From Fodinibius salsisoli (GTDB taxonomy: Bacteria; Bacteroidota; Rhodothermia; Balneolales; Balneolaceae), in the NCBI RefSeq assembly GCF_026229185.1, contig NZ_JAGGJA010000002.1, positions 310,001-374,000 of the forward strand: DNA of 64,000 bases. The letters are read 5' to 3'. Under the pieces are notes generated by a model, which was not told where the DNA came from, made no database searches, and worked only from the letters and a program-made list of their open reading frames with translations. Positions within the stretch are counted from its first letter, which is position 1, and every line of letters begins with the position of its first letter. A program made the translations under genes and the position numbers. Positions 3,390 to 32,405 of the stretch are shown here, piece after piece.

Positions 3390-3805
3390 GAACTTTTTCC
3401 TCCGTTTATAATTTTAGCCTGAGGTAAAGAAAAAGAAATATTGGAAGCTTTCAAATCACATAATACGTTTTATGGTTCTAAATATATTGTGTTAACGCGT
3501 TTAGCGGTTGGAAGAATAATGAAAAGCTTGATTTCACAGACGCTGGCTATAGTTTAAAATGGGTCATCCCCTACGCACGGTGTGCTTCCCGAGAGTAGGG
3601 AGATGATAACACACCTATAACCTGTTTCTGTTCTTAGAACCCAATGATTACTATGATAAAAAATGATTTAACTCTTAAACGCGTTATCGTGTCAGGAACA
3701 TAAAGATAGAGTCTCTGTTTATTAAATGTGAGATTTATGAATTTTAGCTATTTTAGTTGCATCCCATTACTTTAAGGTATTTACTAATCACAGATCAAGA
3801 AGCTA
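3390..3805. other. Divergent intergenic region between anion permease and wzi-like genes
   Basis: 416 bp without a gene. It contains an AACGCGTT-centred motif at 3491-3509, a hairpin-forming repeat TCATCCCCTAC / GTAGGGAGATGA at 3564-3606, and the ~67 bp element at 3621-3687 that recurs upstream of the opposing exopolysaccharide operon. Promoters for both flanking genes must lie here; I could not assign -7/-33 boxes with confidence. Confidence 0.7.
3621..3687 (+). promoter_or_regulatory. Conserved ~67 bp element upstream of the wzi operon, copy 1
   Basis: Starts CTGTTTCTGTTCTTAGAACC and ends TTAAACGCGTTAT. It matches positions 22099-22032 read on the minus strand with one single-base gap and only about nine mismatches by eye. 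It includes the near-palindrome GTTCTTAGAAC and an AACGCGTT palindrome. In both places it is oriented toward, and lies 50-120 bp upstream of, the first gene of an exopolysaccharide transcription unit. A promoter/leader element, a regulator site or an antitermination site are all possible; function is inferred from position only. Confidence 0.6.
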
Positions 3806-5512
3806 TTGACTTCAATTAATTTCATCTACCGGTCTCAGTCTAATCTTTTTGCACTCTTTGCGTTGCTGTTTGTTTGTTCTTCGACCTCGTATGTTTATGC
3901 CCAATCGATTCCCGTTGGCAGTATGAGCGATCATCAATACCGCACACTGCAGCTTCTGTCAGATTCAACCATCCAGACTTCCTTAATGAATCGGTCGCTC
4001 TGGATGGGCGACTATCATAAGCTGACTAACCAAACCTCATCAACTGCCAAGGGCTGGTGGACCCAGAACCTGGAAGGGCCTGAGACTACTTTTGCCAATA
4101 ATTTCTTTAGAGCAGGTATCTACAATCCGGTATTCACCAACACAATTAATAGTGAGCTGCCCTATGGGGGAAATAATGGAGCCGCCTGGTATGGGCGGGG
4201 ACTGAACACCGAGCTGCAGGGAGGTTTTTATCTTACATCGGACTATCTTACGGTTACCTTCCGGCCACATCTGACTTATGCCCAGAATAATGATTTCGCC
4301 AAACCTCGCTTCATCCCAACCAATGAGGATGGCAACCCTCAATACCGGGCTATCTTTGGAGGCATCGACATGCCCTATCGGTTTGGTCCCGATGGCTATA
4401 GTGATTTTGAGTGGGGCCATTCTTCTGTTAGTATTCACTATAAAAGTATTGCAGCAGGCCTGAGTACCGAACCACTCTGGTGGGGACCAGGCGTCCAAAA
4501 TGGGTTGTTACTGAGTAATAATGCATCTGGCTTGCACCATGGTTTTTTGGGAACTCGTACTCCTATCGTCTTTCCCCTGGGTATCGGGAGCTTAGAGTTC
4601 AAAGTAATATGGGCTTATCCTCAAGACTCTGAATACTTCCAAACAACTCCGTCAACGGACAAGGACCGCTTCACCACCGGACTCAATGTCATATTCACCC
4701 CGGGCTTTGCGCCCAACTTAAGCCTCGGTTTTGGACGCTTCAGTCATAAATATATTCCAGAAAGTGGCTTAAAATTCCAGGACTATGCAGCTACGCTTCC
4801 CTTTTTCAATGAGCGTCAAACGAGAAGCAGTGATGCTCAAAACCAGCTGGTTTCTGCTTTCTTTCGGTGGGTCTTTCCGGAAAGCAATGCCGAAGTGTAT
4901 GGAGAATATTTTCGGGAGGACAGCTATTTCAATGCCCGCGACCTGTTCATGGAACCGGACCACGACCGCGCATTTACCCTTGGTCTTCAAAAGGTAGTAG
5001 AAACCAATAACTGGTTCGATTTCTTCAAATTCACGGGCGAAGTAAATTCGCTGGTCCCCAATCGCACCGATGAAGTGCGTCCACAGACCTATTATTACCG
5101 TCATCAACAAATTAAACAAGGACATACCAACCAGGGCGAAGTATTAGGTGCTGCTATCGGACCGGGTTCGGCCAGTCAATATATTGGCGCAGAAGGATTT
5201 TTTGAGAACGGTATGATGGGGGTATTTGTCCAGCGGGTCGCAGAGAATGATTTTTTCCATTACGAATACAATGATACGAATCAACCCAATCCACCAGTCG
5301 GAGATATTTACCGCCATCGTATTAACTTAAATATTGGATTTACAGGCGCTTACCAAACCGGTCCCTTACTGCTGGGAGGCAAACTCATTTGGAATAAAAA
5401 TTATAACTACGGCCGGTATGAGTATGGAAACCCGGATATTGATTTCGACACTACCGGCCAGAATGATAAGATAAATATTCAACTCCAGCTCTCTGCTCGA
5501 TACTTGTTTTAA
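3806..5512 (+). CDS. Wzi-like capsule assembly outer-membrane protein, first paralog
   Basis: A 568-residue secreted protein: hydrophobic signal peptide in the first ~33 residues (cleavage probably after VYAQ), then an aromatic-rich beta-barrel with the Wzi-family marks PYGGNNGAAWYGRG, WGHSSVS and EPLWWGPGVQNGLLLSNN. Wzi of group 1 capsule systems binds polysaccharide at the cell surface. The frame begins with TTG at 3806 behind a weak AAGAAG; no in-frame ATG would keep the signal peptide, so TTG is accepted. The next gene is a close paralog 69 bp downstream with the same architecture, a tandem duplication. The barrel ends in a C-terminal aromatic (SARYLF), as expected for outer-membrane insertion. 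Precise ligand unknown. Confidence 0.85.
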   Translation: MTSINFIYRSQSNLFALFALLFVCSSTSYVYAQSIPVGSMSDHQYRTLQLLSDSTIQTSLMNRSLWMGDYHKLTNQTSSTAKGWWTQNLEGPETTFANNFFRAGIYNPVFTNTINSELPYGGNNGAAWYGRGLNTELQGGFYLTSDYLTVTFRPHLTYAQNNDFAKPRFIPTNEDGNPQYRAIFGGIDMPYRFGPDGYSDFEWGHSSVSIHYKSIAAGLSTEPLWWGPGVQNGLLLSNNASGLHHGFLGTRTPIVFPLGIGSLEFKVIWAYPQDSEYFQTTPSTDKDRFTTGLNVIFTPGFAPNLSLGFGRFSHKYIPESGLKFQDYAATLPFFNERQTRSSDAQNQLVSAFFRWVFPESNAEVYGEYFREDSYFNARDLFMEPDHDRAFTLGLQKVVETNNWFDFFKFTGEVNSLVPNRTDEVRPQTYYYRHQQIKQGHTNQGEVLGAAIGPGSASQYIGAEGFFENGMMGVFVQRVAENDFFHYEYNDTNQPNPPVGDIYRHRINLNIGFTGAYQTGPLLLGGKLIWNKNYNYGRYEYGNPDIDFDTTGQNDKINIQLQLSARYLF

Positions 5513-5581
5513 CCCTATGAGCTTATAAAAAGGGTTTTAGATCCAAATCCTGATCCATAAGCTGGTGGACAGATTGAAAAA

Positions 5582-7390
5582 ATGGTTTCGCAAAAGCCAG
5601 CGCAAAAAATTACATCAACAAAGCAAAACATTGACACTTTGACTTCATCCGCTGCATATACTATTCAAGGCCAATACCCTCTTGTTGCGATCCTCATACT
5701 GGTATGTCTCAACTTGGTTCCTGCACAAACTGCTGCTCAAACGGTTCCTGTTGGCGATTTTCGGGATGACCAGTTCCGATTGCTTCAACTGCTTTCAGAT
5801 TCTACTGCCGAAATATCATATATGAATCGTCCGGTTAGCAAGGAAAGCTATCAGAAGGTCCGAAGAAATTTGGGCTATTCAGATTCGTGGTGGGCCTCTC
5901 CGGACAGTACCCCTAAGATTAACATCTCAGAAGATTTTACCGTCGGATTTTATGAACCTGTGTTACAGGCCACCCAAAATACAAAGCTGCCCTATGGTGG
6001 AAATAATGGAGCCGCCTGGTATGGTCGAGGCATCAATACCGAATTTCAGGGCGGCGTCTACCTGACTTCAGACTACCTGGATATTAGTTTTCGTCCCCAC
6101 TTAATCTATACCGGGAACAGGGATTTTGAAGCCCCCCGATTCCTTCCCCGTGACAGTGAGGGCAATGTCCGTTATGTAGCCCCCGGCATCCTTCCGGAAG
6201 ATACACTCGATCAGCGTATCGACCAGCCGTTCCGGTTCGGCCCGGATAGTTATACTACTTTCGACTGGGGCCATTCTTCCATCCGATTCCACCATCATGG
6301 TCTTGAGCTTGGCATTAGTAATGAACCTCTGTGGTGGGGACCAGGCGTACGGTATGCCTTGGTGATGAGCAACAATGCTTCGGGGGTGCCACATGGCTTC
6401 TTGGGCAGTCGCGAGCCTATTGAGCTTCCCTGGAATATAGGCCATCTCCAATTTCGCTGGATAGCAGCCTGGCCCCGAGACTCCAAGTTTTTTGAGGATT
6501 CTATATCCATTCATTATGAGAAAAAGCGGTTCATGAATGGTCTTAACCTGATTTATTCGCCTTCTTTCCTGCCGAACTTTCACATCGGTACAAGCCGGAT
6601 CATTCAACAATACATTCCTGATGGTGGGCTAAAAGCAGCCGATTATTTTGCTATCTTCCGTTCCTTCCCCAATCCGGATGAAAAAGCATTAAATAGCGCC
6701 CGCGATGCGAGTCATTATGAAGATAAAAACGCCCTTAATTCGGTCTACTTCCGATGGGTTCTTCCGGAAAGTAATGCTGAAATCTATGGTGAACTCTATA
6801 AGGAATCTCATAACTGGAATTTCCGCGACTTTCTAATGGAGCCCCAACATGGCCGGGCTTATACTTTTGGCGTACAAAAAATCATTGAAAGCAACTGGAT
6901 TGATTTTGTAAAAGTGAACGCCGAAGTCAATTCCCTTCTTCCCGGTCGTATCGATGAGGTTCGCCCTCAAACCTATTACTACACCCACAAAAGAATCAAG
7001 CAAGGACATACCAACAGGGGACAACTTTTGGGAGCAGCCATCGGTCCCGGATCAGAAAGCCAATTTGTAAGTATTGAAGGTTATTTCAAGAAGGGGAAGC
7101 TGGGAATTTTTGCTCAGCGCATGGTCGATAATAACCATTTTCATTATGAGTTTAATCAACGCTTTTATCCCGGCGGTGGATTTAAAGACCAGTTCCACCA
7201 TCGTATCAACCTGAACCTTGGTCTCACAGGGGCTTACCAAGTGGGCTCTTTCTTACTGGATGGTCGTATTACATGGAATAAAAACTTTAACTACGGTCGC
7301 TTTGATTTAGGGAAGCCGGCTTTCTATACTATTGAAGGACATAATGTGATCAATATGCAGTATCAACTTTCCGTCCGATACCTCTTTTAA
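5582..7390 (+). CDS. Wzi-like capsule assembly outer-membrane protein, second paralog
   Basis: 602 residues, clearly homologous over its whole length to the preceding gene: both carry PYGGNNGAAWYGRG, FRFGPDxY..F(E/D)WGHSS, EPLWWGPGV, an EVRPQTYYYxHxxIKQGHTN stretch and a terminal RYLF. It has a longer N-terminus (about 45 residues before a hydrophobic signal segment, LVAILILVCLNLVPAQTAAQ), so signal-peptide cleavage probably follows residue ~53. An internal insertion (GILPEDTLDQRID) distinguishes it from its neighbour. ATG start. It lies 29 bp upstream of the GT4 gene, so the three genes probably form one operon. Likely surface attachment of exopolysaccharide, possibly with different polymer preference. 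Confidence 0.85.
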   Translation: MVSQKPAQKITSTKQNIDTLTSSAAYTIQGQYPLVAILILVCLNLVPAQTAAQTVPVGDFRDDQFRLLQLLSDSTAEISYMNRPVSKESYQKVRRNLGYSDSWWASPDSTPKINISEDFTVGFYEPVLQATQNTKLPYGGNNGAAWYGRGINTEFQGGVYLTSDYLDISFRPHLIYTGNRDFEAPRFLPRDSEGNVRYVAPGILPEDTLDQRIDQPFRFGPDSYTTFDWGHSSIRFHHHGLELGISNEPLWWGPGVRYALVMSNNASGVPHGFLGSREPIELPWNIGHLQFRWIAAWPRDSKFFEDSISIHYEKKRFMNGLNLIYSPSFLPNFHIGTSRIIQQYIPDGGLKAADYFAIFRSFPNPDEKALNSARDASHYEDKNALNSVYFRWVLPESNAEIYGELYKESHNWNFRDFLMEPQHGRAYTFGVQKIIESNWIDFVKVNAEVNSLLPGRIDEVRPQTYYYTHKRIKQGHTNRGQLLGAAIGPGSESQFVSIEGYFKKGKLGIFAQRMVDNNHFHYEFNQRFYPGGGFKDQFHHRINLNLGLTGAYQVGSFLLDGRITWNKNFNYGRFDLGKPAFYTIEGHNVINMQYQLSVRYLF

Positions 7391-7419
7391 GAAACTTTGA
7401 ACCCTTTAGAACTGCTATT

Positions 7420-8529
7420 TTGAAAACAGCCATTGTAACAGATTTCCTAAATCAATTTGGAGGGGCTGAAATCGTCACTCACCAAATTGCTACCCTGTTT
7501 CCCCAGGCTGACATTTATACCATGTTTGGCGAACAGCAAGTAATGGACACTTATTTCGAGGGGCACCGGGTTATCGAGCATCCTAAAATCAAAGATTCCT
7601 CTTGGCGTCAAAAGCATTACCGCAAGCTACTTCCTCTCTACCCTACCTATGTAGAAGATTTTGATTTAACCGGCTATGACCTGATCATTTCCAGCTCGTA
7701 CCTGTGGGCTAAAGGGGTTTTATCTCGCCCGGATACCTTGCATATCTCCTACGTCCACACGCCCATGCGGCAAGCCTGGGTGAAGTATCATGAATACCTG
7801 CAGAACGAAAACGATATTGGAAAGTTAACCCGCACGGCCCTCCGATACGTAATGAACTATTTGCGCATATGGGATGTATCCACGGCCAACAGAGTAGATC
7901 ATTTCATAGCCAATTCGACTACCGTACAAAAACGTATTGAAGATATATATCGCAGGGAAGCTACCGTCATCCATCCTCCGATACAAGTTCAGCAATACCG
8001 GGATAAACACAAGGGTGTTGAGCAGAAAGAACACTACATAACGGTGGGACGACTGGTACCTTATAAACGAGTAGATATCCTTATTGAAGCTTTTAATCAA
8101 TCGCCGGATCGCGAATTATATATTGCCGGTGCGGGTAATGACCGTGACCGCTTAGAATCACTGGTCCAGTCCGACAATATCCATTTTTTGGGCTTTGTGG
8201 ATGAAGATACTAAAACAAAACTAATTGCACAGGCAAAAGCCTTTTTATTTGCGGCGGAAGAAGATTTTGGAATGAGTCCTGTAGAAGCCATGTCATTGGG
8301 CACTCCTGTTATTGGATATGGTCAGGGCGGCACCCGGGATTATATTCAAGATGGGATTAATGGCTGTTTTTTTGAGGAACAGACGCCCGAATCATTGCTA
8401 CAGACTATCTCGGTATTTGAAGAAACAGAGTTTGATTCTCAAACGGTCAAGCAGTCTGTGACTAAATTTGATGAAGCCCATTTTCGTCAACAGATACAGT
8501 CATTTATTGAAGGTAAGCTGAAGGACTAA
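7420..8529 (+). CDS. Glycosyltransferase family 4 (GT-B fold), mannosyltransferase-like
   Basis: A 369-residue cytoplasmic glycosyltransferase. The N-terminus (MKTAIVTDFLNQFGGAE) with the glycine-rich acceptor loop and the C-terminal nucleotide-sugar motif EEDFGMSPVEAMSLGTPVIG (about residues 279-298) followed by GGTRDYI place it in GT4, close to the WbaZ/WcaI type of exopolysaccharide mannosyltransferase. It starts with TTG at 7420, 29 bp after the second Wzi gene. The donor cannot be read from the sequence. Together with the GT2 at 17.3 kb and the priming transferase at 14 kb it is one of only three recognisable sugar transferases in the locus, so the repeat unit may be short or further enzymes may lie elsewhere. 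Confidence 0.85.
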   Translation: MKTAIVTDFLNQFGGAEIVTHQIATLFPQADIYTMFGEQQVMDTYFEGHRVIEHPKIKDSSWRQKHYRKLLPLYPTYVEDFDLTGYDLIISSSYLWAKGVLSRPDTLHISYVHTPMRQAWVKYHEYLQNENDIGKLTRTALRYVMNYLRIWDVSTANRVDHFIANSTTVQKRIEDIYRREATVIHPPIQVQQYRDKHKGVEQKEHYITVGRLVPYKRVDILIEAFNQSPDRELYIAGAGNDRDRLESLVQSDNIHFLGFVDEDTKTKLIAQAKAFLFAAEEDFGMSPVEAMSLGTPVIGYGQGGTRDYIQDGINGCFFEEQTPESLLQTISVFEETEFDSQTVKQSVTKFDEAHFRQQIQSFIEGKLKD

Positions 8530-8957
8530 CCTTCTGAATACCTTTAGAGATACTTATCCGATGGTTTTTTAGGGGCGTCGGTGTCTAAAAGAGCTGGGGA
8601 TAGATCATCTCATAGCCCGGAATACGTAGCATTTTATACTCATCGGATGAGTACAAAAAGACATAGTTGAGTATTCAGCCATATCACTCATCCGATGGGT
8701 GGTATCAGCCTATTGCCCATTTGAGACTCCTCGCCGCTAAGGCTTCGGAGTGATACTGGTGCAAACGTACAACAAATAAACTGCAGCTCGAATTTTACTA
8801 CTTCCCATCTCAACCCTCGATACGCAAACAGCCTCTCATCGGAACATAATGTGTCAAACGAACTTTAGAAGTTATAAAATCAGAATGTAAGTTTATCACT
8901 AAATTCATTATTTTAAGCGCTTAGAAAAATTCAATATCCAATAAGATTATACTATCA
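8530..8957. other. 428 bp intergenic region with paired ACTCATCNGATGAGT palindromes
   Basis: No gene seen. Two copies of the palindrome lie at 8637-8653 and 8685-8701, followed by CATTTGAGACTCCTCG. The last ~130 bp before the SLBB gene are AT-rich and probably hold its promoter, but no clear boxes were assigned. Confidence 0.65.
8637..8745. repeat. ACTCATCNGATGAGT repeat unit, copy 2 (two palindromes)
   Basis: TACTCATCGGATGAGTA at 8637-8653 and CACTCATCCGATGGGTG at 8685-8701, then ATCAGCCTATTGCCCATTTG. The same order (palindrome, ~30 bp, palindrome, ACCAGCCTATT, TTTGAGACTC) occurs at 11842-11935, so the pair is one composite repeat in the style of a REPIN. Confidence 0.75.
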
Positions 8958-11468
8958 ATGCGATTGACAAAGGGACTATTACCTCTTCTACTTTTGTGCT
9001 TTGCTACCCTTGTACAGGCACAAAATCAAAGCCTATCTGATATCGATTTCAAGAGTATTAGAGTTGACCAGCTTTCCGACCAGCAGATTCAACGCATATA
9101 TGATGCTGCACAAGCTCGTAGTCTCTCTATCGATCAGGCCGTTCAATTAGCAGTATCCCGGGGGTTACCCCAATCGCAGGCCAGTAAATTACGGCAACGC
9201 CTTCAGCAAGCGCGCAGTGGAGGCCTCGGGGGAGACACAACCCAGGGACTACAGACCGGGCAGCTTAGAACGCAAGTTGAAACAGAAGGACCTCCGGCCG
9301 ATCCCACAAAATTTGATTCCCTGTATGCCCTTTCCGATTCGCTGGAAATGGCTAAAAGACAGCTTCGTGAAAAAATATTTGGATATAAGCTCTTTACCGA
9401 TGACCGAGTGACGTTCGAACCTGCACTGAATATCCCTACTCCCAAAGATTATGAGTTAGGTCCCGGCGACGAAATTATCATCGATATATGGGGAGCTGCT
9501 CAAATGAATTACCAGCTGCAAGTAACGCCGGATGGCATGATTAACATCCAAAACATTGGCCCTATCAATGTTAACGGCCTGTCCATTGACGAAGCCTCCA
9601 ACCGGCTTCGCTCCCGCCTTGGAGATATCTACTCCGGACTGAATCCACAGAACGAACAAAATAAGGACACCTACATGCAGCTGTCCCTGGGACAGGTGCG
9701 CAGCATCAAAGTAACCGTGCTAGGCGAAGCTAATGTGCCCGGAACCTACACGTTGTCATCCTTTTCCACGGTATTTAACGCCCTCTACGCTGCAGGCGGC
9801 CCCAATACACAGGGAAGCTTCCGAAAAATCAACGTCATGCGTGGCGATGAGAAAGTCGCTACTTTTGACCTTTACGACCTGCTCATTTATGGTAACCAGT
9901 CCCAGAATATCCGGCTGCGCTCGCAGGATATCATTCAGATCCAGCCTTATCAGAACCGTGTAGAAATTGAGGGTGAAGTCAAACGACCCGGCATCTACGA
10001 GCTTGTGGGCAATGAAACCTTACAGGATCTGATCGTCTATGCCGGCGATTTCACCGACCAAGCCTATACCGATCGCATTAAAGTGGTTGGCAATACTCCT
10101 AAGCAGCGTCGAATTTCGGACGTCAACAAAGGTTATTTCGATGATTATGTCTTATCAAACGGAGACTCCGTAGCTGTAGGAGAAATATTAGATCGTTTTA
10201 CCAATAAAGTTGAAATTGAAGGCGCCGTTTTTCGTCCCGGCGAATATGCTCTAAATGATACTACTTCCCTCTATTCGCTCATCCAACGTGCCGACGGACT
10301 GATGGGGGATGCTTTCATGAACCGTGGGCTCATCTTACGTACTCAGGACGATTATACCATGGAGACCATCTCTTTTAGCGTACGAGAGCTGATGCAAAAT
10401 CCCGAAGCTCATAATATCCCCCTGAAGAAAGATGATATCGTTCGTATTAACTCTATTTTTGATCTGAGAGAAGAATATACGGTTGGCATTAAGGGACCGG
10501 TACAAAGTCCGGATGAGTATGAGTATGCCAAGGGCATGACGCTTGAGGACCTCATCTATATGGCGGATGGCTTTAAAGAATCTGCCACCCCTTATCGTAT
10601 TGAGGTTGCCCGCCGCATCCGTGATGTAGATGACCTGACCGGCAACCGGTCATTTATTGCTGATATCAAAACCTTTAACGTAAACGAAGACTTGAGCCTT
10701 GGTGAGGCCGGCGCTAACTTTGAGCTGCATCCCTTTGACCAGGTCTATATTCGTGAGCTTCCAAATTACGAAGAACAGAAAGAGATACATGTTGTTGGTG
10801 AAGTGCAGTACCCCGGGAAGTATGCCATTTCATCGCGTACCGAACGCATCTCTGATATTATAGAACGAGCGGGCGGGCTGACCAATGATGCCTATACCGA
10901 AGGCGCAACCCTTTTCAGGAGAAGAGAATTTACCCAGCAGGAGTCTCAGCAAATGCTTGCCAACGTAGAAGGAACTGAAGCTCAAGAACAGCAACAACAA
11001 AGACAACAGGCCCAGCGCAGTGAGTCGGCCCAGGTCGGTATTGAGCTTCCGGAAGTACTTCAAAATCCGGGCTCCAGGTATGATCTATTACTCGAGGAGG
11101 GAGATTCCCTGTTCGTGCCCCAACGGCTTGAAACCGTGACTGTTGAAGGTGGCGTATTCTATCCCACGACCATTCGCTTCGAGCCTGGCCGTTCATTTTC
11201 TGACTATATTACGGCTGCCGGTGGATTTAATGACCTTGCCCGAAAAAAGAAGGCTTATATTATCTATGCCAATGGCGATGTGGATAGAACCAAGAAGTTT
11301 TTATTCTTCAAAAATTATCCCTCTGTACAGCCCGGGGCTACTATCGTCGTGCCGGAAGAAGATCCCAATGAAGGCCTCTCTACCCAGGAACGTATCGGTA
11401 TATTGTCAGCAATTACCTCTACCGCGGCCCTCATAGCAACGACTATCGTTCAGATCACGAGGAATTAA
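8958..11468 (+). CDS. SLBB-domain polysaccharide export protein (OPX/Wza-like)
   Basis: An 836-residue protein with a signal peptide (cleavage near LVQAQ), a polysaccharide export (PES) domain starting at YELGPGDEIIIDIWG (about residue 160), and five or more SLBB modules recognised by repeated V.GEV..PG.Y and G..... patterns to about residue 790. A Gln-rich low-complexity stretch lies near residue 675. A C-terminal hydrophobic helix (ILSAITSTAALIATTIVQ) ends the protein, the Wza-like position for crossing the outer membrane. It is more than twice the length of E. coli Wza, as in the long OPX proteins of Bacteroidota. It would form the export channel for the polymer made by the surrounding locus. 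No stand-alone tyrosine kinase (Wzc) was found in the window. Confidence 0.9.
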   Translation: MRLTKGLLPLLLLCFATLVQAQNQSLSDIDFKSIRVDQLSDQQIQRIYDAAQARSLSIDQAVQLAVSRGLPQSQASKLRQRLQQARSGGLGGDTTQGLQTGQLRTQVETEGPPADPTKFDSLYALSDSLEMAKRQLREKIFGYKLFTDDRVTFEPALNIPTPKDYELGPGDEIIIDIWGAAQMNYQLQVTPDGMINIQNIGPINVNGLSIDEASNRLRSRLGDIYSGLNPQNEQNKDTYMQLSLGQVRSIKVTVLGEANVPGTYTLSSFSTVFNALYAAGGPNTQGSFRKINVMRGDEKVATFDLYDLLIYGNQSQNIRLRSQDIIQIQPYQNRVEIEGEVKRPGIYELVGNETLQDLIVYAGDFTDQAYTDRIKVVGNTPKQRRISDVNKGYFDDYVLSNGDSVAVGEILDRFTNKVEIEGAVFRPGEYALNDTTSLYSLIQRADGLMGDAFMNRGLILRTQDDYTMETISFSVRELMQNPEAHNIPLKKDDIVRINSIFDLREEYTVGIKGPVQSPDEYEYAKGMTLEDLIYMADGFKESATPYRIEVARRIRDVDDLTGNRSFIADIKTFNVNEDLSLGEAGANFELHPFDQVYIRELPNYEEQKEIHVVGEVQYPGKYAISSRTERISDIIERAGGLTNDAYTEGATLFRRREFTQQESQQMLANVEGTEAQEQQQQRQQAQRSESAQVGIELPEVLQNPGSRYDLLLEEGDSLFVPQRLETVTVEGGVFYPTTIRFEPGRSFSDYITAAGGFNDLARKKKAYIIYANGDVDRTKKFLFFKNYPSVQPGATIVVPEEDPNEGLSTQERIGILSAITSTAALIATTIVQITRN

Positions 11469-11700
11469 GAGGAGATGTGGATTTCCTCCTACAATATATA
11501 TTCTGAACGAGACGAAGTGGAGCTGAAGAATCTCACTGGATCAATGGAATACAGATTAGGCTGATAATCACAGTTTTTTTGCGAGAAATCAGTATTCCTT
11601 GTTTTATGGGTGATTAGCCTCAAAACTGATTGCCCAAACCTTAAAACTCTTAACCTCCTCTCTCGGAGGGTAAATTTACCCTGTAACAGGTAGTTTACAA

Positions 11701-11778
11701 TAGTAGGCCAGACATCTTGTCCGGCTGATAGCATCTTTATTATGGTTGTTACAGTCGGGAAAGATTCCCGACCTACTA
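11701..11778. repeat. Double-palindrome REPIN-like repeat, copy 1
   Basis: Outer arms TAGTAGG and CCTACTA enclose two palindromes, CCAGACATCTTGTCCGG and TCGGGAAAGATTCCCGA. The same plan, including the shared core GACATCTTGTC, occurs at 33676-33753, and a single half (TTGGGAAAGCTTCCCGACCTAC) at 1264-1285. Confidence 0.7.
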
Positions 11779-11841
11779 CGTATTTTATCATCAATAATCC
11801 CCATTCAGGAGATATAGGGTTCCACCAAGTTATTTAGACTA

Positions 11842-11935
11842 TACTCATCGGATGAGTAACAGGACCCCTAACAAACAATGAGCAAGATCACTCATCCGAT
11901 GAGTGATACCAGCCTATTCCTTGTTTGAGACTCCA
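11842..11935. repeat. ACTCATCNGATGAGT repeat unit, copy 3 (two palindromes)
   Basis: TACTCATCGGATGAGTA at 11842-11858 and CACTCATCCGATGAGTG at 11889-11905, then ATACCAGCCTATTCC and TTTGAGACTC. Organisation matches the copy at 8637-8745. Confidence 0.75.
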
Positions 11936-12031
11936 GTGGAATAATATTCCACTGGGCACGCCGGGATAGGGCAACACATCTGGCACTCCCTCTTCCAAGG
12001 AAGAATTCTTATTGCCTTATCTAAGACAGGC

Positions 12032-13351
12032 TTAGCCCCCAATCTCAATCCAAACCACATCCATTAAATTATGACCCGTGGCCCCCGTTTTTAGAAGGGT
12101 ATCCATCTGCTTGTGGAAATGATAGGAATCATTACGCTGCAGGTAAGTTTCCGGATCTATATCATTATTGCGAGCCCGCCCTATCGTCTCACCGTCAACA
12201 AGAGCTCCCGCCGCATCCGTCGGACCGTCAATCCCATCGGTACCAGCACTTAGCCAGCTTATATTTGGCTGATTAGCGATCTTTAAAGCTCCACGCAGTG
12301 CTAACTCCTGGTTCCGTCCTCCTTTTCCTTCTCCCGTAACTTTTACCGTTGATTCCCCATAAAATATAAGCAGCGTTGGCCTTTCCTGAGTGCCTTCCTT
12401 CTCCAACTGATCCTTAATTCTTTCATAAACAGTAGTAGCAACCGTTTCCACCGGCTCATTAAAAGGCTCCCTGGCTACCCATACCTGGTACCCGTCCTCT
12501 GCCGCAAAGGCCTCTGCCTGCCGGGCAAACTGACCAGCCGAACTGATTATCTGTGTTTGCTCACCAGCAAAGGATATCTCCCCCGGCTTTAGCGTTTCCT
12601 GCCAACGGCCTGCTATTCCCAACTGAATATGTTTTCGTACTGACTTGGGCACTTTATCCCAAATGCTTCGTTCTTTTAAGACGCCTTCTGCATCTGAAAA
12701 AGTCGAGGAATCAGGAACGGTAGGCCCGCTTCCGATAACAGCCGGATGATCACCCGGCACATCCGAAATAATCAAATTAATCAACGTCGTTTCATGGGAT
12801 AATGAACGAAGCAACTGCCCTCCCTTAATATCTGAACAATGCTTACGGACGGCATTCATCTCATAAATCCCGGCACCCGAGTTATTCAAAAGGTCGAACG
12901 TTTGATTAAGTTCTTCGATAGTAATGTCCTCTGCAGGCTGACACATTAATGAAGAAGTGCCCCCCGAGATGAGGTTCAATACAATCGCATCTCCGGGTAT
13001 TTCCTTAAAAAAAGAGATCGCCTGCTCTCCGGCCCTCAAACTACCCCTGCCCGGCACCGGATGTTCTCCTTCAATGATCTCATCCGCCGGCACAGAAACC
13101 GAAGCCTTCGAACCGGCTGTGATTACCAGACTCCCGGCTATTCGACCTTCCATAATAGTATGCACCGCTTCATACATGGGGATGGAGGCCTTCCCCGCCG
13201 CAAAAACATAAACGGGATGTTCCTTCAGGTCAAAGCCCGACGCCCCAACGCTCAACTTATGCCCTTTACAAGAGACCCGGTCCGCGATGGCCTTCTGGGG
13301 TGAACAAGCATCGAGGGTACGGAGGAAAAGCTCCTTCAGATATGTATGCAT
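12032..13351 (-). CDS. Glycerate 2-kinase (MOFRL/GckA family)
   Basis: A 439-residue enzyme of the DUF4147/MOFRL family that phosphorylates D-glycerate to 2-phosphoglycerate in the cytoplasm. Diagnostic segments are AAGKASIPM near the N-terminus, LISGGTSSLM, GGQLL, ISDVPGD, SGPTVPDS, and in the MOFRL domain GESTVKVTGEGKGGRNQELA and AGTDGIDGPTDAAG. Length is normal. It sits between exopolysaccharide genes without sharing their function, flanked by repeat-rich gaps on both sides, so it looks like a separate single-gene unit. It could link to the hydroxypyruvate-isomerase-like gene at 38 kb through the glycerate/hydroxypyruvate pathway, although the two are far apart. Confidence 0.9.
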   Translation of the reverse strand: MHTYLKELFLRTLDACSPQKAIADRVSCKGHKLSVGASGFDLKEHPVYVFAAGKASIPMYEAVHTIMEGRIAGSLVITAGSKASVSVPADEIIEGEHPVPGRGSLRAGEQAISFFKEIPGDAIVLNLISGGTSSLMCQPAEDITIEELNQTFDLLNNSGAGIYEMNAVRKHCSDIKGGQLLRSLSHETTLINLIISDVPGDHPAVIGSGPTVPDSSTFSDAEGVLKERSIWDKVPKSVRKHIQLGIAGRWQETLKPGEISFAGEQTQIISSAGQFARQAEAFAAEDGYQVWVAREPFNEPVETVATTVYERIKDQLEKEGTQERPTLLIFYGESTVKVTGEGKGGRNQELALRGALKIANQPNISWLSAGTDGIDGPTDAAGALVDGETIGRARNNDIDPETYLQRNDSYHFHKQMDTLLKTGATGHNLMDVVWIEIGG

Positions 13352-13970
13352 AGAGACTACTGGTTGTCTATTAAGCGTATCAAATATTTATTGCAGTCTA
13401 AGTACGCACTTATTTTAATGGAAATAAAGTGTTTTTCTTTCCATGGGATATCTGATTTATAGCAGGAAAATGATAGCTCTCCAAGCCTAATGAATAGGGT
13501 CCACAGCCCACGGGGCGAATCCATCCAAGTGCTTTAAACTTCACACTTTCGACTTATTTACTACAAAAAAACCTCTCCGCTATGCCGTACTCCCAAAAGG
13601 GAGATTTGTCACAGCTCATTTGTCAACAAGTTTAAGACCGGTGGCAAACTGATTTTAATACGACCGATCTAAGAAAAAAGGTTCGGTTCGTTAAGGCAAA
13701 GGAGACGCTGAGGATTGAAAAAAACTGTCTAAATCAGAAGTGAGTTTTTATTCTTTGATCTGAGGTGCCTCTGGTTACTTACTGGTCTCTTTTTCCAGCT
13801 GGCGATACCTTTTAGTCTGGTCGCGCTTCTGTGGGATGTTCGTTCCAAAAATAGAACAATATATCACCTATACGACATCCCCTGCTCCCTTTGGCATGAG
13901 ACAATTACATTATAATTTAGAATTATCACAGAAGTGTACAACCCATTAAGCCTTTACCCGCCCTAAACAA
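13352..13970. other. 619 bp intergenic region, no gene
   Basis: Holds a degenerate repeat CTCCGC...CCGTACTCCC..AAGGGAGA at about 13573-13604, also seen at 30190-30225. A 31-codon minus-strand frame (13775-13867, GTG start) ends in a Lys/Arg/Glu-rich tail but lacks support. The rest is unremarkable. Confidence 0.6.
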
Positions 13971-14729
13971 CTAATGTCCATCCGTATCCAGATGAATCAT
14001 TTTAAGAATGGTGTGGCCTAAAATATTTAAATCCAGGCCCAGACACTGTTTTTCAACATAAATAAGATCGTAGTCTAAACGCTTCCTCATATGATCTACA
14101 TCCAACGTTCCCCCTCGGTACCCTTTGACCTGAGCGAGTCCTGAAATGCCGGGTTTGACTGCATACCGGTAATAAAAATCATCATACATGTTATTCCAGT
14201 GTGCGCATTCTTCAATCGCATAAGGCCGGGGACCAATAAGACTCATATCTCCCTTCAACACGTTCAGCACCTGTGGCAATTCATCCAGATTGGTCATCCG
14301 TAATAAACTACCAAACCAGAAGACTCGCTTATCGTTTTCTTGGGTTACCACCGGTTTGCCATCAATACGCCGAAGATCCAGCTGATGCATCGTCCGAAAT
14401 TTATAACAGACAAACTCATGCCCATGTTGTCCGGTTCTGCGTTGCTTGTATAGAACAGGTCCCTTAGAGCTTAGCTTAATAAATAGGGCAAAAACGGGAT
14501 ACAGCAATAGGAAAAACAGAAAAGCAAAACATCCAATAAAAATGTCGATACTTCGCTTACCCCTAAAGGTATTATTTGCCAGTGATTCAAATTTTGAATA
14601 ACTGCTATCCGCACCGTTAGCAGACGCTATATTAGTATCGTACATCTCTTGTACAATACATTGCCTGACGGTTTGATATTTCTCTTGAATTAGGTTTTCA
14701 GGGGCAACCGACTCGCTTTTATATCCCAT
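13971..14729 (-). CDS. Priming sugar (phosphoglycosyl) transferase
   Basis: A 252-residue bacterial sugar transferase (WcaJ/PglC catalytic domain) that moves a sugar-1-phosphate onto undecaprenyl phosphate to start the repeat unit. After ~55 polar residues comes one hydrophobic re-entrant helix ([20 protein letters not shown]), then the catalytic core: [41 protein letters not shown] and [18 protein letters not shown]. It is the short, monotopic type without the multi-spanning N-terminus of WbaP. The ATG at 14729 has only a weak AAG upstream. It faces away from the sulfotransferase across a 485 bp AT-rich gap. Probably the first committed step of the locus. Confidence 0.9.
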
Positions 14730-15161
14730 CTTAATAATTTATTAAGAATTGTAGCTAACTGGGCTTATAGCTAATAGTTATGTTCAGGTTCAAAAAAATC
14801 TAATATAAAACTATTTCACTCAATAGTAAAAAAAGAACTCTTTTTAAGATTAAAATAAAGTCCACACCTCAGTTATAAATACTTTCTATTGAGCAATAGG
14901 ACCATCAAACAATATTTACCAGCATTGATTGTTTATGTTTCAAGATAAATTGATTTATTTATCTTGAATTAGACAATTGAGTTTCGCACAGAATGATATA
15001 GGAAGATGCTAACAAAATATCTACCAGTTGCAATTCCTTTGCTTTGTTGAATAATTAGTAAGCTCATCGATGAAATGTTCTTAGAAGATTATTGCTTCCC
15101 CATAGATTTGTTTCTAAAGCAAAATTATTTTTTTAATATTTCTTATTTAATCATTAAATAA
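14730..15161. other. AT-rich divergent intergenic region
   Basis: About 430 bp without a gene between the priming transferase and the sulfotransferase unit. It is clearly more AT-rich than its surroundings. An inverted repeat TCAAGATAAATTGA / TTTATCTTGAA lies around 14939-14967. Promoters for both flanking genes are expected here. Confidence 0.5.
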
Positions 15162-15218
15162 ATGAACATTTTACACATTACTAGTTTTTCTAACAAGAGA
15201 GGCAATAGTAGAAAATGA
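15162..15218 (+). CDS. 18-residue leader-like peptide overlapping the sulfotransferase start
   Basis: ATG at 15162 gives MNILHITSFSNKRGNSRK and stops at a TGA that overlaps the sulfotransferase ATG as ATGA (15215-15218). The opening MNILHITSF closely resembles the first strand of GT4 glycosyltransferases, so this may be the stump of a deleted transferase or a short translated leader that couples translation to the next gene. It is too short to test by homology and could be chance. Confidence 0.3.
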   Translation: MNILHITSFSNKRGNSRK

Positions 15219-15958
15219 TATTTTGTATTATCGGTTATTCAAGGTCAGGCACTACTTATTTATCTAATTTAATTTACAACAACATTGAATGTAAACAATT
15301 CAATGAGCCTCATCTTTTGTGGAAGAATATCGATAAGTTTAATATCTACGATCAGGTTAAGCCCGTTAAAAATGAATACTTAAAAAAATTTGTTGCACGG
15401 AAGCTTCGACATGACAACAAAATTGTCATTGAAAAATCACCTCCGAACCTTTTTAGACCAGAAACAGTAAAGTATGTATTACCAGAGGCTAAGATATTAT
15501 TCATCGAAAGGGATGAGCAAGCCTGCTTGCAATCTAATGTAAAAGCAACGCTGAAACATGGCGGATTTAACCCAGCTAAGTATTTACAAAAATCACAACC
15601 AGATGCATATAATTTAGAAAAGGGACAAAATCCCCAAAATACGCTGCTATTACACAAGCAGATCCATTCCTCCCAGGTTTTTAATTTCACCAAATACTCT
15701 CTTCTTAAATTTAACCACTGGCGCAAGGGACTCTACCCTTTTGGTCCTAAACTAAGTGGATATGACAAGTTAATGCGCGAGAGAGGACCTGAATATTACC
15801 ATACCAAATGCATTGATCTAATAAAAGAATACAAGAAAAAATATATCAAACTATTTGATGACATCCATTTTATAAAACTGGAAAAATTAGTAGAAAATTC
15901 AAATAACTACCTGGATGACATACTTGGTTTTATAAAAAGGTACAGTAGTGAAGCTTAG
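15215..15958 (+). CDS. PAPS-dependent sulfotransferase family protein
   Basis: A 247-residue protein whose N-terminus, IIGYSRSGTTYLSNL, is the 5'-phosphosulfate-binding loop of sulfotransferases (RSGTTYL at residues 10-16). ILFIERDEQACLQSNVKATL (about 95-114) resembles the 3'-phosphate-binding region, with the expected Arg/Ser pattern less strict than in the classic family. It would sulfate a carbohydrate or lipid-linked intermediate using PAPS. The gene is markedly AT-rich and Lys/Asn-rich compared with its neighbours, suggesting horizontal origin. It is the only plus-strand gene between two leftward operons. With cysC, cysQ and a probable sulfate permease at 0-3.4 kb, it suggests that the exopolysaccharide is sulfated; this is inference. 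Confidence 0.78.
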   Translation: MIFCIIGYSRSGTTYLSNLIYNNIECKQFNEPHLLWKNIDKFNIYDQVKPVKNEYLKKFVARKLRHDNKIVIEKSPPNLFRPETVKYVLPEAKILFIERDEQACLQSNVKATLKHGGFNPAKYLQKSQPDAYNLEKGQNPQNTLLLHKQIHSSQVFNFTKYSLLKFNHWRKGLYPFGPKLSGYDKLMRERGPEYYHTKCIDLIKEYKKKYIKLFDDIHFIKLEKLVENSNNYLDDILGFIKRYSSEA

Positions 15959-16078
15959 ATCACTCAACCATTGTCCTTAACTTTTGAAGACACTTAACTC
16001 CTCCCGGGAGGTATCAATCCGCTGGCTTACATTGTAACCTATTCTAATAAAAGTATATAACTTTCTATGAATTCAGAT

Positions 16079-17320
16079 TTACTTTGAACCGCCCAGCACG
16101 CTAATCTTGACCCGTTTATAATTTCCTTTATGCATCATGAACAGTCCAACCGAGATGGTAAAGGGAAGCATGTGTGAAGGGGTTGTAAAGCGATGCGCGG
16201 TAAACGAGGCAAAAGTGATAGTAAAAAAAACGATCAATAAGTAATCGCGGATCACCGGCTGGGTTTTAATACGTTTGAGATATAAAAAGAGCGATACCCA
16301 GAACGTTAAAAACAGAGTCAATCCTACGATACCCTGTTCCGCAAGAAAATGTAAATACGAATGATGAGCATGTGCATCGGTATGTGCTTTTTGGGGCTGG
16401 GCATTGTAGGTTAGATAGGGAACAATCTCTTGCAGATCATACGGCCTGTCGTCGTACGACCCTACTCCATTGCCTAAAACGGGCGATTCCAAAAATATAT
16501 ACCAAGCCCTGGGGAAGGTATAGAATATTCTGATCATCACATTGGCACTTTTCTGTTCTACATCATTATCAAGATCTATCTGAACATTATTTTGAGTAGC
16601 AATCTGTCCTTTGTAGTAAGGGTAACCGATCATCAGGCTGCCAGCAGTAAACAAAATGGGTATCAAAAGTAACAACATAAGTATTTTCATACGCTCGGTT
16701 TGTACACAGTACCAAGCCATAATGCCAAGTGCTAACCCCAGGATAGATCCGCGGGAATAGGTAGCTATCAAAATGATTAGGACTAACAGAAATAAAAATA
16801 GCTCCTTTTTACTGCCACGGTGATACCAGTAGGCAAAGCCCAGTGCACCTAAAGTGGATAAAAAACCACCTACTGCGTTTTGTGCGTAAAACAATCCACT
16901 GAAAACTATTTCATGAATATTACCTAAAAAGTTAGCGGTTAACAGGTGATATACAAATAACAGTCCATAAAGAATGACGCCAAACAGGTAGAACTGGCGA
17001 AAATGGTTCCGCAGCTTAAATTCAAAGCTGAACAGGGGCAAAATGAGCAGCGGCGCATAGGAAATGATAAAATTGCCGTCGCGCCGGTAAAAGCCAAATT
17101 CAACAACAGAGAGAGGATGGTACAGCAGTACACTCATTAAAAAGAGTGCCAAGAAAGCATACAGCCACGCAATGGGCCGGGGCAGCTCATTTTTGTTAAA
17201 TGCATAAATAGATAATGGAATCAACAGGGTCAGTAAGGGACTAACATAGATGAAGTTGGTCACTGTCCCAAATAGTGACACCAGCGCCAGTCCCAATACA
17301 AATTTCTTCTGTAAATCCAC
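16079..17320 (-). CDS. O-antigen ligase/polymerase family membrane protein (Wzy/WaaL-like)
   Basis: A 413-residue polytopic inner-membrane protein with ten or more hydrophobic helices and a periplasmic loop in the second half. The Wzy_C signature is visible as ATYSRGSILGL (about residue 190) and, after the loop with GNGVGSYDDRPYD, HAHHSYLHFLAEQGIVGL (about residue 318). It either polymerises repeat units or ligates them to a carrier; with Wzx and Wzz beside it, polymerase is the likelier job. The start is a GTG (17320). It lies 17-20 bp downstream of the GT2 gene in one leftward operon: methyltransferase, Wzz, Wzx, GT2, Wzy. Confidence 0.85.
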   Translation of the reverse strand: MDLQKKFVLGLALVSLFGTVTNFIYVSPLLTLLIPLSIYAFNKNELPRPIAWLYAFLALFLMSVLLYHPLSVVEFGFYRRDGNFIISYAPLLILPLFSFEFKLRNHFRQFYLFGVILYGLLFVYHLLTANFLGNIHEIVFSGLFYAQNAVGGFLSTLGALGFAYWYHRGSKKELFLFLLVLIILIATYSRGSILGLALGIMAWYCVQTERMKILMLLLLIPILFTAGSLMIGYPYYKGQIATQNNVQIDLDNDVEQKSANVMIRIFYTFPRAWYIFLESPVLGNGVGSYDDRPYDLQEIVPYLTYNAQPQKAHTDAHAHHSYLHFLAEQGIVGLTLFLTFWVSLFLYLKRIKTQPVIRDYLLIVFFTITFASFTAHRFTTPSHMLPFTISVGLFMMHKGNYKRVKISVLGGSK

Positions 17321-17337
17321 TAGAGTAATCCGTTACA

Positions 17338-18240
17338 CTATTTATTAAAGGTAAACATTAGTTTTATGATCATGGGGATGCGCTTCCACTGGCCTCTTCG
17401 TACTCTGTTAATCAAAGCATAAAAAATAGATAAATAGGCACAAGGCAAATATAATGGGAAAAATTTATAAGTGAACTTTAATCGGTTTTTGAGCTGATAA
17501 TAATCGGATTTTTCACTCCTGTTAGCTCGCTGTAATTGGTTTCCCCCAGTAGATGCTCCCTCCTTATGATAGACAACACTTTCCGGTGCAAATCCTAATG
17601 AAAATTGTGGCTTAGCCCGTATTCCCCAATCAAGTTCTTCGTAATATAGAAAATAATCTTCACTCAACCATCCCACCTCGTTGAGGAAGCGCCGGGATAC
17701 CAGCATCGAGGCCCCGATAACGAAATCAAGATTTTCTTCAATTTGCTGAGGATTAAAGGAGGTTTCCACAGACTGATGTTGCCCAAAATTGTTGGTCGTC
17801 GCCAACCATTTGTTATGGCTTCCTCCGCCCAACACTTGGATGGTATCACGCTGGTGGTAATAAATAAGTTTAGACCCGCATATACCTATGTTGGTATCTT
17901 TTTCCATCCGCTGGACGAGGTGAGAAAGAGCATCTGGATCCACTACGGTGTCATTATTTAACAACCATACATAATCAGTTCCTTCGTTAAGTGCCTGTTC
18001 AATACCTAAATTATTGCCCCCGGCAAAGCCCAGGTTTTGGTCACTTTCAATGAGATGGACCTGCGGAAATGCCCTGCTGATCTTTTCTGGGGATCCGTCA
18101 GTTGATCCATTATCAACAACAATGACCGAATAATTAGGGTAATCGAGGTTATCCAAAGAATGGAGGCATTCGATGGTATCCTGCCATCCGTTCCAGTTGA
18201 CCAAAATTATAAATATCCTGGGCGTTAAAGATATATTCAT
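17338..18240 (-). CDS. Glycosyltransferase family 2, rhamnosyltransferase-like
   Basis: About 300 residues with the GT-A fold marks ILVNWNGWQDTIECLHSL, VVDNGSTDGSPE, NLGFAGGNNLGI, the DXD-like LLNNDTVVDPDAL, and the acceptor-side FLYYEELDWGIRAK. This set is typical of the WbbL/RfbF rhamnosyltransferase branch of GT2. I chose the ATG at 18240; a TTG two codons upstream is possible, but neither has a good ribosome site. The enzyme would extend the lipid-linked repeat unit. It lies 16 bp after the Wzx stop and 17 bp before the ligase start, so the three are co-transcribed. Confidence 0.88.
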   Translation of the reverse strand: MNISLTPRIFIILVNWNGWQDTIECLHSLDNLDYPNYSVIVVDNGSTDGSPEKISRAFPQVHLIESDQNLGFAGGNNLGIEQALNEGTDYVWLLNNDTVVDPDALSHLVQRMEKDTNIGICGSKLIYYHQRDTIQVLGGGSHNKWLATTNNFGQHQSVETSFNPQQIEENLDFVIGASMLVSRRFLNEVGWLSEDYFLYYEELDWGIRAKPQFSLGFAPESVVYHKEGASTGGNQLQRANRSEKSDYYQLKNRLKFTYKFFPLYLPCAYLSIFYALINRVRRGQWKRIPMIIKLMFTFNK

Positions 18241-18256
18241 TGGCAACGGGGCTTAA

Positions 18257-19807: not shown

Positions 19808-19904
19808 CTATAGTTGTGCTTCCGAAACGGAGTTTAGGATAACTAACAGGATTTTATAAAAGTTTCTGTAGATTAGAGGAACAAACATTTCTCGGAATAC
19901 TATC

Positions 19905-20972
19905 CTACATATTCCGGCTAACTTTTTGATAGACATCCCGGCTGGCGATAAACACGAAAGAGACCACAAGGCCTACTAAAAAAGACAGTATCAAAATGAG
20001 GATGCGCTGGGGCTTACTTTTTTCTATAGGAACATTGACCGACTGCAGCGGCTTAAACACCGGCGTCTGTTCCTGCACTTTCATTTTGGCCTCCATTAGC
20101 TGCTGAGATACACTGTTGTACATATTATAAGCTAAGTCAAATTCGGCCTGCAGACGCTGCTCCTCTGCCCGGGACTTAGCTGTAGCAAGATTAACATTCT
20201 GATCTAAAAAGTTAGCAAGCTTATCCTGTACCTTCTTAAGGCGCTCTTGTGCCTGCTCATGCTGTGTCTGTGCAAACTGCAGATCTTCCTTTGCCTTCTG
20301 AGTACTATAAGCTTTGATAAAATCCTTGAGCATGTTAATTACTCCCCGGTTAATCTGGGCGGCGGCAATGGGATCCGGCATTGTGGATGTTACCGTAAGA
20401 ACTCCAGTTTCGCTACTGAGCTCTATAGTAATTCTTTCCTTCATTTTTTTAATAATTTCGAGCTCGTCACTTTTTAACTCAACAACGGCATCTTCATTAA
20501 ATTGAGTTCTCAACCATTCCGGCAACTGTTTTACAGGGTCCGGGGAGCCAAGCTTTCCGGGCAGTTTAAGGGTGTATTCAATCAAAAACTCAAAAAGAGA
20601 AAGGTTTCGGATATCTTCAAAGTATGTATAGCCGCTCACCGTGGTATCAAGCTCTGAAAAATAGATCTCCTTCTGAAGCAGTTTATCCTGAAAGCCTAAA
20701 CTCTTTATTATTTGGGGATAGACTTCCGGTGCGATCGTTCCCTCTTTGGAAAGTTCCATTGATCCCAGGCTGCCCAACCCAAGCATACCTCCATAACTTT
20801 CCAATAAATCACCTGCAGAACTTTCACTGCTTTTCACTTCGGGCATCAACAATGCCTCCGAGGTATATTCAACCGAACTAAATAAGGCAATAATCAATCC
20901 CAAAACTACAAAACCACCCGTTATTTTGGCAATCAACCGGCGTTTTTCTCCCAATAACCGAAGTAGCTCCAC
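19905..20972 (-). CDS. Wzz/GNVR chain-length determinant protein; start probably further upstream
   Basis: The polysaccharide co-polymerase that sets polymer length: N-terminal membrane helix (IAKITGGFVVLGLIIALFS), a periplasmic domain with a coiled coil (about residues 210-285), then the PxxP-like EQTPVFKPLQSVNVPIEKSKPQR and a second helix (ILILILSFLVGLVVSFVFIA). There is no kinase domain. The GTG at 20972 is the first ordinary start codon, but the same frame is open to a TAA at 21113 and reads as a credible N-terminus (SAREYRLVPVEEEKANDD) containing no ATG, GTG or TTG suitable as a start. A CTG at 21095, preceded by AAAGAGGA, may be the real start, giving about 396 residues. Confidence 0.85.
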   Translation of the reverse strand: MELLRLLGEKRRLIAKITGGFVVLGLIIALFSSVEYTSEALLMPEVKSSESSAGDLLESYGGMLGLGSLGSMELSKEGTIAPEVYPQIIKSLGFQDKLLQKEIYFSELDTTVSGYTYFEDIRNLSLFEFLIEYTLKLPGKLGSPDPVKQLPEWLRTQFNEDAVVELKSDELEIIKKMKERITIELSSETGVLTVTSTMPDPIAAAQINRGVINMLKDFIKAYSTQKAKEDLQFAQTQHEQAQERLKKVQDKLANFLDQNVNLATAKSRAEEQRLQAEFDLAYNMYNSVSQQLMEAKMKVQEQTPVFKPLQSVNVPIEKSKPQRILILILSFLVGLVVSFVFIASRDVYQKVSRNM

Positions 20973-21263
20973 GATATTAACAGCATTATCATCATTTGCT
21001 TTTTCCTCCTCGACAGGTACCAGCCGATACTCCCGAGCCGATAATTCCTGGGCCTTTTCTTCTCCGGAATCGTTATGTTCGTGACCTTTACTCAGCTTTT
21101 CCTCTTTACTTTAAAACTATATTTCGCTTACAGCCACAAATGATACGGATTTTTATGGTGCAGAGAAAGGCGATTCTTGGCACCAAGATTATAGCTCTGC
21201 TGGAGAATATCCAATTTCAATTGGACTCAGTTCTAAAGGAATTCTGTTCCTGAACAGCTTACT

Positions 21264-21292
21264 AAACGAGAGCAAAGCTCACTCAGAATTTA
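21264..21292. repeat. Short direct repeat, copy 1 (partner at 22174-22202)
   Basis: AAACGAGAGCAAAGCTCACT and nine further bases match 22174-22202 with about six differences. The two copies flank the methyltransferase gene and each contains a GAGC(A/G)AGCTC hairpin core. Confidence 0.5.
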
Positions 21293-21309: not shown

Positions 21310-21981
21310 TCAATCTATTTTTTCTAAAAGAAAGGTATGCATCGTAGAATTCGTAAATTGCTGGCGTACAATGCTCAAGTTGTTTGTTTGAAAAATACCT
21401 TCAAGGGTATTGGGTTTTCTACGGATCCGGCGAATTCCTTGCCGCTGGTTCTTTGGTAATAGCCAGTCAGGTAGGTTATTTCTGCACCTATACAAAAGGG
21501 TAGCCGGACGAGTATCAAACTGTAGCCGAGCCATCCCCTTTCCATTAGGTTTTAGGCAGGAGGCTATTTTTTTAATATACTTTCTGATGACCTCCAAATC
21601 AGGTATATGCTGAAACACCAGGTAGGAATAAACAAAATTAACAGGTTTCGTATGCCAAGGTTGATCGGGCAGATAAGTTTCAATGTTATCAACCCCAAAC
21701 TGGTTGGCATGCTTTTCTAGTTGGGCCAGCATTGTGGGGGCCACGTCTACAGCTAAAACTTCATCAAATTCAACTGCATGTGGAAAGGTTAACCGACCCA
21801 CTCCGCACCCAATCTCCAGAGCTCGTGCTGTTTCATCCAAACGGGGCAAGACTTCTTCCAGGCTTTGTTCAACGAATGACTGTCCGGAGTTAAAAAAATC
21901 TTTTTTGTTACCATTGAAATTCGTATCCACATAGCACTTCGCCTCTTCCCTGGCAAATTGTTCCCATTTGGGTTCTGGCAT
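21310..21981 (-). CDS. SAM-dependent methyltransferase (class I)
   Basis: A 223-residue Rossmann-fold methyltransferase. Motif I is ALEIGCGVGRLTFP (about residues 54-67), motif II LAVDVAPTML, and motif IV-like FVYSYLVFQHIPD. The substrate is not identifiable; as the first gene of the leftward exopolysaccharide operon it probably modifies a sugar or caps the chain end. The conserved ~67 bp element ends about 50 bp upstream of its ATG (21981). The gap to the Wzz gene (about 215-340 bp depending on start) is longer than elsewhere in the operon and holds a short repeat. Confidence 0.8.
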   Translation of the reverse strand: MPEPKWEQFAREEAKCYVDTNFNGNKKDFFNSGQSFVEQSLEEVLPRLDETARALEIGCGVGRLTFPHAVEFDEVLAVDVAPTMLAQLEKHANQFGVDNIETYLPDQPWHTKPVNFVYSYLVFQHIPDLEVIRKYIKKIASCLKPNGKGMARLQFDTRPATLLYRCRNNLPDWLLPKNQRQGIRRIRRKPNTLEGIFQTNNLSIVRQQFTNSTMHTFLLEKID

Positions 21982-22031
21982 TTTTTGATGATCTATTTAT
22001 AGCTCATTGAGTTATTAGAGATCAAACTAAC

Positions 22032-22099
22032 AAAACGCATTTAGGGGTTAAAATCATTTTTTACCATAGTAGTCGTTTGGTTCTAAGAACAGAAACAGC
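22032..22099 (-). promoter_or_regulatory. Conserved ~67 bp element upstream of the methyltransferase-Wzz-Wzx operon, copy 2
   Basis: Read on the minus strand it starts CTGTTTCTGTTCTTAGAACC and ends TAAATGCGTTTT, matching 3621-3687 almost throughout. It points into the leftward exopolysaccharide operon, as copy 1 points into the rightward one. See the finding on this pair. Confidence 0.6.
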
Positions 22100-22300
22100 A
22101 TAGCTGGATATATCATCACTTCTCAAATATCCTACTGCAGCTGTGATGGGCCTCATCTCCTGGATGGCTTAAGACACGAGAGCAGAGCTCCCTCAAAACT
22201 TATGCAGGTTTATTTATTTCTCTGGCCCCTTTATAGTGCCCGGGAAATGGATAGACATGACAAATGCCCTACACCAAGTCTAATTCTTCTAAACCAACCT

Positions 22301-22390: not shown

Positions 22391-22431
22391 ATCAACGTTG
22401 ATCGTTTCTCACAGCAATAAGACTGAGACAA

Positions 22432-32222: not shown

Positions 32223-32405
32223 CAGACTGTCCATTCCTACACTCCGGGTCAAGGATTAATTTCAAATTTCTAACCTCAAATTTCCAAACTCTAACTGCCA
32301 TCCTTAAAACTTAACACTTCTTACTTAACCACTTTTTAAAAGTGTTGACCTTAGCCTGTCGACCACTTACCTTGCATCCAAAAATTAAGCACAAAATTAT
32401 CGCCT

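Follow-up and report, generated by a model that had tools for sequence, protein, structure and literature searches.

Why should the same short sequence stand, in opposite orientations, before two gene clusters of one exopolysaccharide locus in Fodinibius salsisoli? The initial annotation of the 64,000 nucleotides of DNA analysed here, to which we refer as the window, had offered selection on a shared promoter, regulator site or transcript leader as the simplest answer. The element is non-coding, occurs twice in the genome, each time just before a gene of the sugar-coat cluster, and may be a copied control sequence. Below we consider what the two copies have in common, where else the element occurs, what precedes the same genes in relatives and which explanation fits these findings best.

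Results

The two copies of the element

The repeat is real, with one copy at 3621-3687 on the plus strand and the other at 22099-22032 on the minus strand, as had been described. The earlier count of one gap and about nine substitutions also stands, as there are 66 columns over 3621-3685, of which 9 differ, the gap being one of the 9. The similarity continues to the left, to 3602 in copy 1 and 22117 in copy 2 (86 columns, 15 differing; Table 1), and a 20-nt block including the 11-bp palindrome GTTCTTAGAAC is identical between the copies. No intergenic repeat pair of the window is stronger (83% identity over 86 columns, E 2e-13); the local alignment score of copy 1 against copy 2 is 51.5 and the maximum of 300 dinucleotide shuffles is 17.5. 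The differences between the copies are unclustered (P 0.29 for the longest clean run and 0.43 for the two longest).

Both copies are oriented alike with respect to the gene downstream, and both point into genes of the polysaccharide locus. From the end of copy 1 to the start codon of wzi there are 120 bp, and from the end of copy 2 to that of the methyltransferase gene 52 bp, which makes the 50-120 bp first given more exact. A block that is conserved in relatives follows copy 1 at a distance of 55 bp, and copy 1 itself lies within a stretch that has no counterpart in them. The proposed conservation of a terminal palindrome, AACGCGTT, is borne out in part: it is perfect in copy 1, but copy 2 reads AATGCGTT. 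Exact AACGCGTT occurs twice in the window, at 3494 and 3678, both within one intergenic region, and this number is near chance (at least two in 21 of 100 shuffles). At 3494-3501 AACGCGTT is closely followed by GCGGTTG, and the same is seen in a locus on another contig (L162), so this may be a second small repeat.

Table 1. Positions in the window of the two copies and of the features around them.
Feature	Position	Strand	Remarks
Copy 1 of the element	3602..3687	+	ungapped core 3622-3669; palindrome GTTCTTAGAAC 3630-3640
Probable promoter region of wzi: block immediately ahead of the gene, with conservation in G003, G004 and G008	3741..3791	+	BLAST, alignment
wzi-type gene (Pfam Caps_assemb_Wzi), first after copy 1	3806..5512	+	
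wzz gene, first of wzz-wzx-GT2-wzy unit	19905..20972	-	
Probable promoter region of wzz: conserved block AAAAATCCGTATMATTTG ahead of the gene	21137..21154	-	
Hairpin sequence behind methyltransferase gene, possibly a decayed terminator	21267..21284	-	not flagged by terminator scan
SAM-dependent methyltransferase gene, first after copy 2	21310..21981	-	not found in wzz-wzy stretches of G003, G004 and G008
Copy 2 of the element	22032..22117	-	ungapped core 22051-22098; palindrome 22080-22090
Same hairpin sequence behind next gene upstream, shortly before copy 2	22177..22194	-	not flagged by terminator scan

Copy number and distribution

The genome itself (G000; 43 contigs, 4.85 Mb, 98% complete) was covered by individual sequence searches, on which the genome-wide statements rest. 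A whole-genome BLAST search returned the second copy at E 9.3e-16, a 101-base query matched two places only at E 0.001, and the 40-nt core, with up to 3 mismatches allowed, was again confined to these places. When the element was divided, no further exact copy of either half was found in the genome: the AT-rich half with up to 3 mismatches matched the element's two places only, and the palindrome half had its exact matches in the two copies and three further matches, each with 2 mismatches. These three do not exceed the five matches of the reversed-pattern control, and no wider set of sites is indicated. The next best match in the genome (C33:350472, E 0.017, 31 bases) lies in a 3-kb locus (L153) whose ORF translations included no recognisable polysaccharide gene. 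Many copies unrelated to polysaccharide genes, which the initial annotation had named as evidence against its reading, were thus not seen; the searches gave two, both in the polysaccharide locus. A decayed third copy was sought in 26 tests, on both strands of 13 stretches that represent 12 distinct regions, and none was convincing, the lowest p values being 0.02, 0.03 and 0.04 where about one of 26 is expected at 0.04 or less.

Beyond this genome the element was not encountered. The core is present in one of 92 family genomes and one of 394 phylum genomes (the phylum set overlaps the family set), in both cases the genome of origin. Permissive BLAST in the 12 genus genomes gave nothing above chance level in the other 11, where the best E values range from 0.04 to 1.7. 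With 3 mismatches, the second half matches once in G003 and three times in G004, and the reversed control has four matches (two each in G003 and G006). In the stretches of G003, G004 and G008 the wzi upstream region was not found a second time, except for a weak match (27 bases, E 0.22). The viral contigs searched contain no exact match to the 40-nt core and a 181-base query had no match in plasmids or phages; these null searches argue against a mobile or phage origin. The literature on JUMPstart, UpxY and NusG and on Fodinibius exopolysaccharide, as far as it was accessible to us, yielded no paper on this element, which is not proof of absence, and no promoter study for Balneolaceae was found within the same limits.

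Upstream of wzi

A wzi gene was found in 33 of 89 family genomes and, within the genus, in four of 12 (G000, G003, G004 and G008). The wzi upstream regions of 13 relatives were viewed by eye and the three from the genus were aligned, the other ten being omitted because of their distance. A block immediately before wzi, around 3741-3791, is common to the four genus genomes (BLAST E 5e-9 in G004, 1.5e-5 in G003 and 1e-4 in G008) and is probably the wzi promoter region, judging from its conservation and position; the element would then sit where an upstream regulatory site is expected. On its other side wzi is adjoined by an SLC13-type gene, in G003 and G008 as well; this is not so in the G004 stretch.

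The motif TAnnTTTG is a Bacteroidetes-type promoter motif. We dropped the reading of the block before wzi as such a promoter because 8 of 95 upstream regions, drawn from 12 loci, contain the motif and the shuffle mean is 7.2, so that there is no enrichment. Over the same regions TTTTACT is over-represented (13 vs 4.1), a result on which we do not rely because orthologous regions are counted repeatedly, very many k-mers were tried and a motif search of these 95 regions gave nothing clear. Sigma-70-type scans of the two upstream regions that carry the element stayed at shuffle level, with 2 hits (mean 2.2) and 4 hits (mean 2.9).

The methyltransferase gene and the wzz unit

The initial annotation had copy 2 preceding a single unit of methyltransferase, Wzz, Wzx, GT2 and Wzy genes. 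There are probably two transcription units, because wzz has a conserved upstream block of its own behind the methyltransferase gene. The stretch before wzz is common to all four genus genomes (E 1e-21 in G003, 9e-15 in G008 and 4e-9 in G004) and may include the start of the wzz reading frame, the best conserved part being the block listed in Table 1. At E 1e-40 or lower wzx occurs in 14 of 89 family genomes, and in the genus in the same four of 12 as wzi; in G003, G004 and G008 it is on a different contig from the wzi pair and the order wzz, wzx, GT2, wzy is kept. A tblastn search (E 1e-5) of the 18-19-kb wzz-wzy stretches of these three genomes did not find the methyltransferase gene. Its matches in the family are weak, the best having E 1e-11 and 29% identity, and at E 0.001 they come from 22 of 89 genomes, its own among them. 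We read the gene as an added unit of its own, and copy 2 would therefore serve the methyltransferase gene first, with read-through into wzz being possible.

The surroundings of this gene are composite. The region before copy 2 (22202-22102) resembles that before wzz (21292-21198), with a score of 27.5 vs a maximum of 20.5 in 300 shuffles, so that in front of the methyltransferase gene a segment resembling the wzz upstream region adjoins one resembling the wzi upstream region, as in a mosaic. When up to 3 mismatches are allowed, G000 has four occurrences of the hairpin sequence in Table 1 and G003, G004 and G008 have none; the two outside the window are followed by a T run, as in terminators, while the two in the window lack one and were not flagged by the scan. 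Taken over both genes, what is shared genus-wide is the blocks directly before wzi and wzz and not the element, and the unit boundaries are corrected thereby.

The wider locus and other repeats

The wzi-GT4-sugar transferase and wzz-wzx-GT2-wzy modules (3806-20972) form one locus here and in G037, whereas G003 and G008 have them on separate contigs. In both F. sediminis and F. roseus, wza is located elsewhere, with no wzi in the stretch examined. Before the sugar transferase gene, at 14802-14840 on the minus strand, a block reading GAGTTCTTTTTTTACTATTG...GAAATAGTTYTATATT is conserved in G000, G003 and G008 and is a probable regulatory or promoter region common to the genus. It contains GTTCTT and TACTAT, as the element does, at another spacing, which may be chance.

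The window holds further repeats. A dispersed intergenic repeat with a palindrome like CATCCGATGAGT is found at 1450-1517, 8635-8753 and 11840-11934 (70-75% identity between copies), and L162 carries similar sequence. An inverted intergenic pair of about 110 bp (70-73%) occupies 38911-39052 and 59861-59996, and a tandem array of the 7-base unit GTTAGCA lies at 32114-32243 between genes that we take to be acyl-CoA dehydrogenase-like from their ORF sequences.

Discussion

Could the element act in the transcript, as a leader that recruits an antiterminator of the RfaH, UpxY or LoaP kind or forms a regulatory RNA? It lies before polysaccharide genes like ops and UpxY leaders, it resembles JUMPstart/ops and RfaH of enterobacteria in being a short shared sequence in that position, and with the UpxY-controlled capsule leaders of Bacteroides fragilis it also has in common a Bacteroidota-type bacterium. 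We nevertheless consider this extremely unlikely, and the analogy drawn at the outset is unsupported. The suggested check for a NusG, RfaH or UpxY paralog gave one PF02357 match in the genome (98% complete) and no specialised paralog; the control search had matches in 10 of 14 named genomes. UpxY genes are reported to adjoin their target operons and to act on 5' leaders, and the same adjacency is reported for LoaP and TaA genes (PMC7819879); unlike that arrangement, the window has no NusG-domain gene and the genome has only one. Nor does the element resemble ops, as the initial annotation had recognised: against the ops consensus, neither upstream region (3390-3805 and 21982-22431) contains an ops-like site, the nearest being at 7958, and the window as a whole contains 8 with 1 mismatch, a number that none of 100 shuffles attains (mean 2.5). 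RNA folding of the copies gave no signal (z 0.14 and 0.20; 106 and 104 of 200 shuffles fold equally well or better) and there was no Rfam match in the window at gathering score. The block between copy 1 and wzi also suggests a start downstream of the element, which, unlike JUMPstart/ops, would then probably lie upstream of the wzi transcription start; a transcript from that promoter would therefore lack it. The gene behind copy 2 is without counterpart in the relatives' stretches.

Because the two copies face each other as inverted repeats, one might take them for recombination sites that flip or bound the 18.4-kb segment between them. Against this, the wzi-SLC13 junction at the left end is the same in G003 and G008, both of which are without the element, no match was obtained in viral contigs, plasmids or phages, and no recombinase was noticed among the ORF translations of the window (by eye; ten proteins against Pfam); we think it very unlikely. 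A far more serious competitor is a neutral origin, in which a short segment was duplicated as the locus was rearranged and the methyltransferase gene gained, so that the similarity of the copies means only that this happened fairly recently. The unclustered mismatches, the mosaic around the methyltransferase gene and the absence of the element from the relatives searched are all consistent with such a relic, as is the presence, within 9.6 kb of intergenic sequence, of two self-inverted palindromes and four further repeat pairs (53-115 bp, 70-77% identity). That both copies precede genes of one pathway in the same orientation, and that no third copy was found in the genome, count against it. 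We regard neutral duplication as quite possible and nearly as likely as shared control.

Our tentative preference, which we hold to be a little short of probable, is that in the element we have a lineage-specific upstream control segment, and that its duplication within the locus put wzi and the methyltransferase gene under shared regulation. An ordinary operator or promoter can be duplicated before co-regulated genes, and what we find here is of that form: a near-identical segment with a short palindrome, in the same orientation, upstream of two functionally related genes. Unlike the general case, the element exists in two copies only, is not conserved in relatives and has a hypothetical regulator, no gene for which was identified. 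As a mechanism, we envisage that an operator or distal promoter was duplicated within the polysaccharide locus and that a DNA-binding regulator would recognise it, perhaps at the palindrome GTTCTTAGAAC, and would act on transcription initiation, providing a common regulatory input for wzi and the added gene. Since the methyltransferase gene was not found in the stretches of three relatives, it is plausible that an added gene should be accompanied by a copy of a control region. The differing distances to the start codons and the presence in the window of other intergenic repeats of similar length weigh against shared control, and no conservation argues for a function of the element because it was found in no relative searched.

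The shared promoter or regulator site of the initial annotation thus survives as a reading of two copies that each point into a polysaccharide-locus gene; the selection invoked for it is not demonstrated, because the element is in no other genome searched and the mismatches between its copies are unclustered. Two copies in one genome cannot separate selection from recent duplication. A more specific version, which we consider unlikely, is that of a species-specific cassette with its own putative regulator, copied before a newly acquired sugar methyltransferase gene and wiring it to the capsule-anchoring wzi genes in an early promoter capture. If the element is functional, it would mean that a newly added sugar-modifying gene can join the control of older capsule genes through duplication of a short upstream segment.
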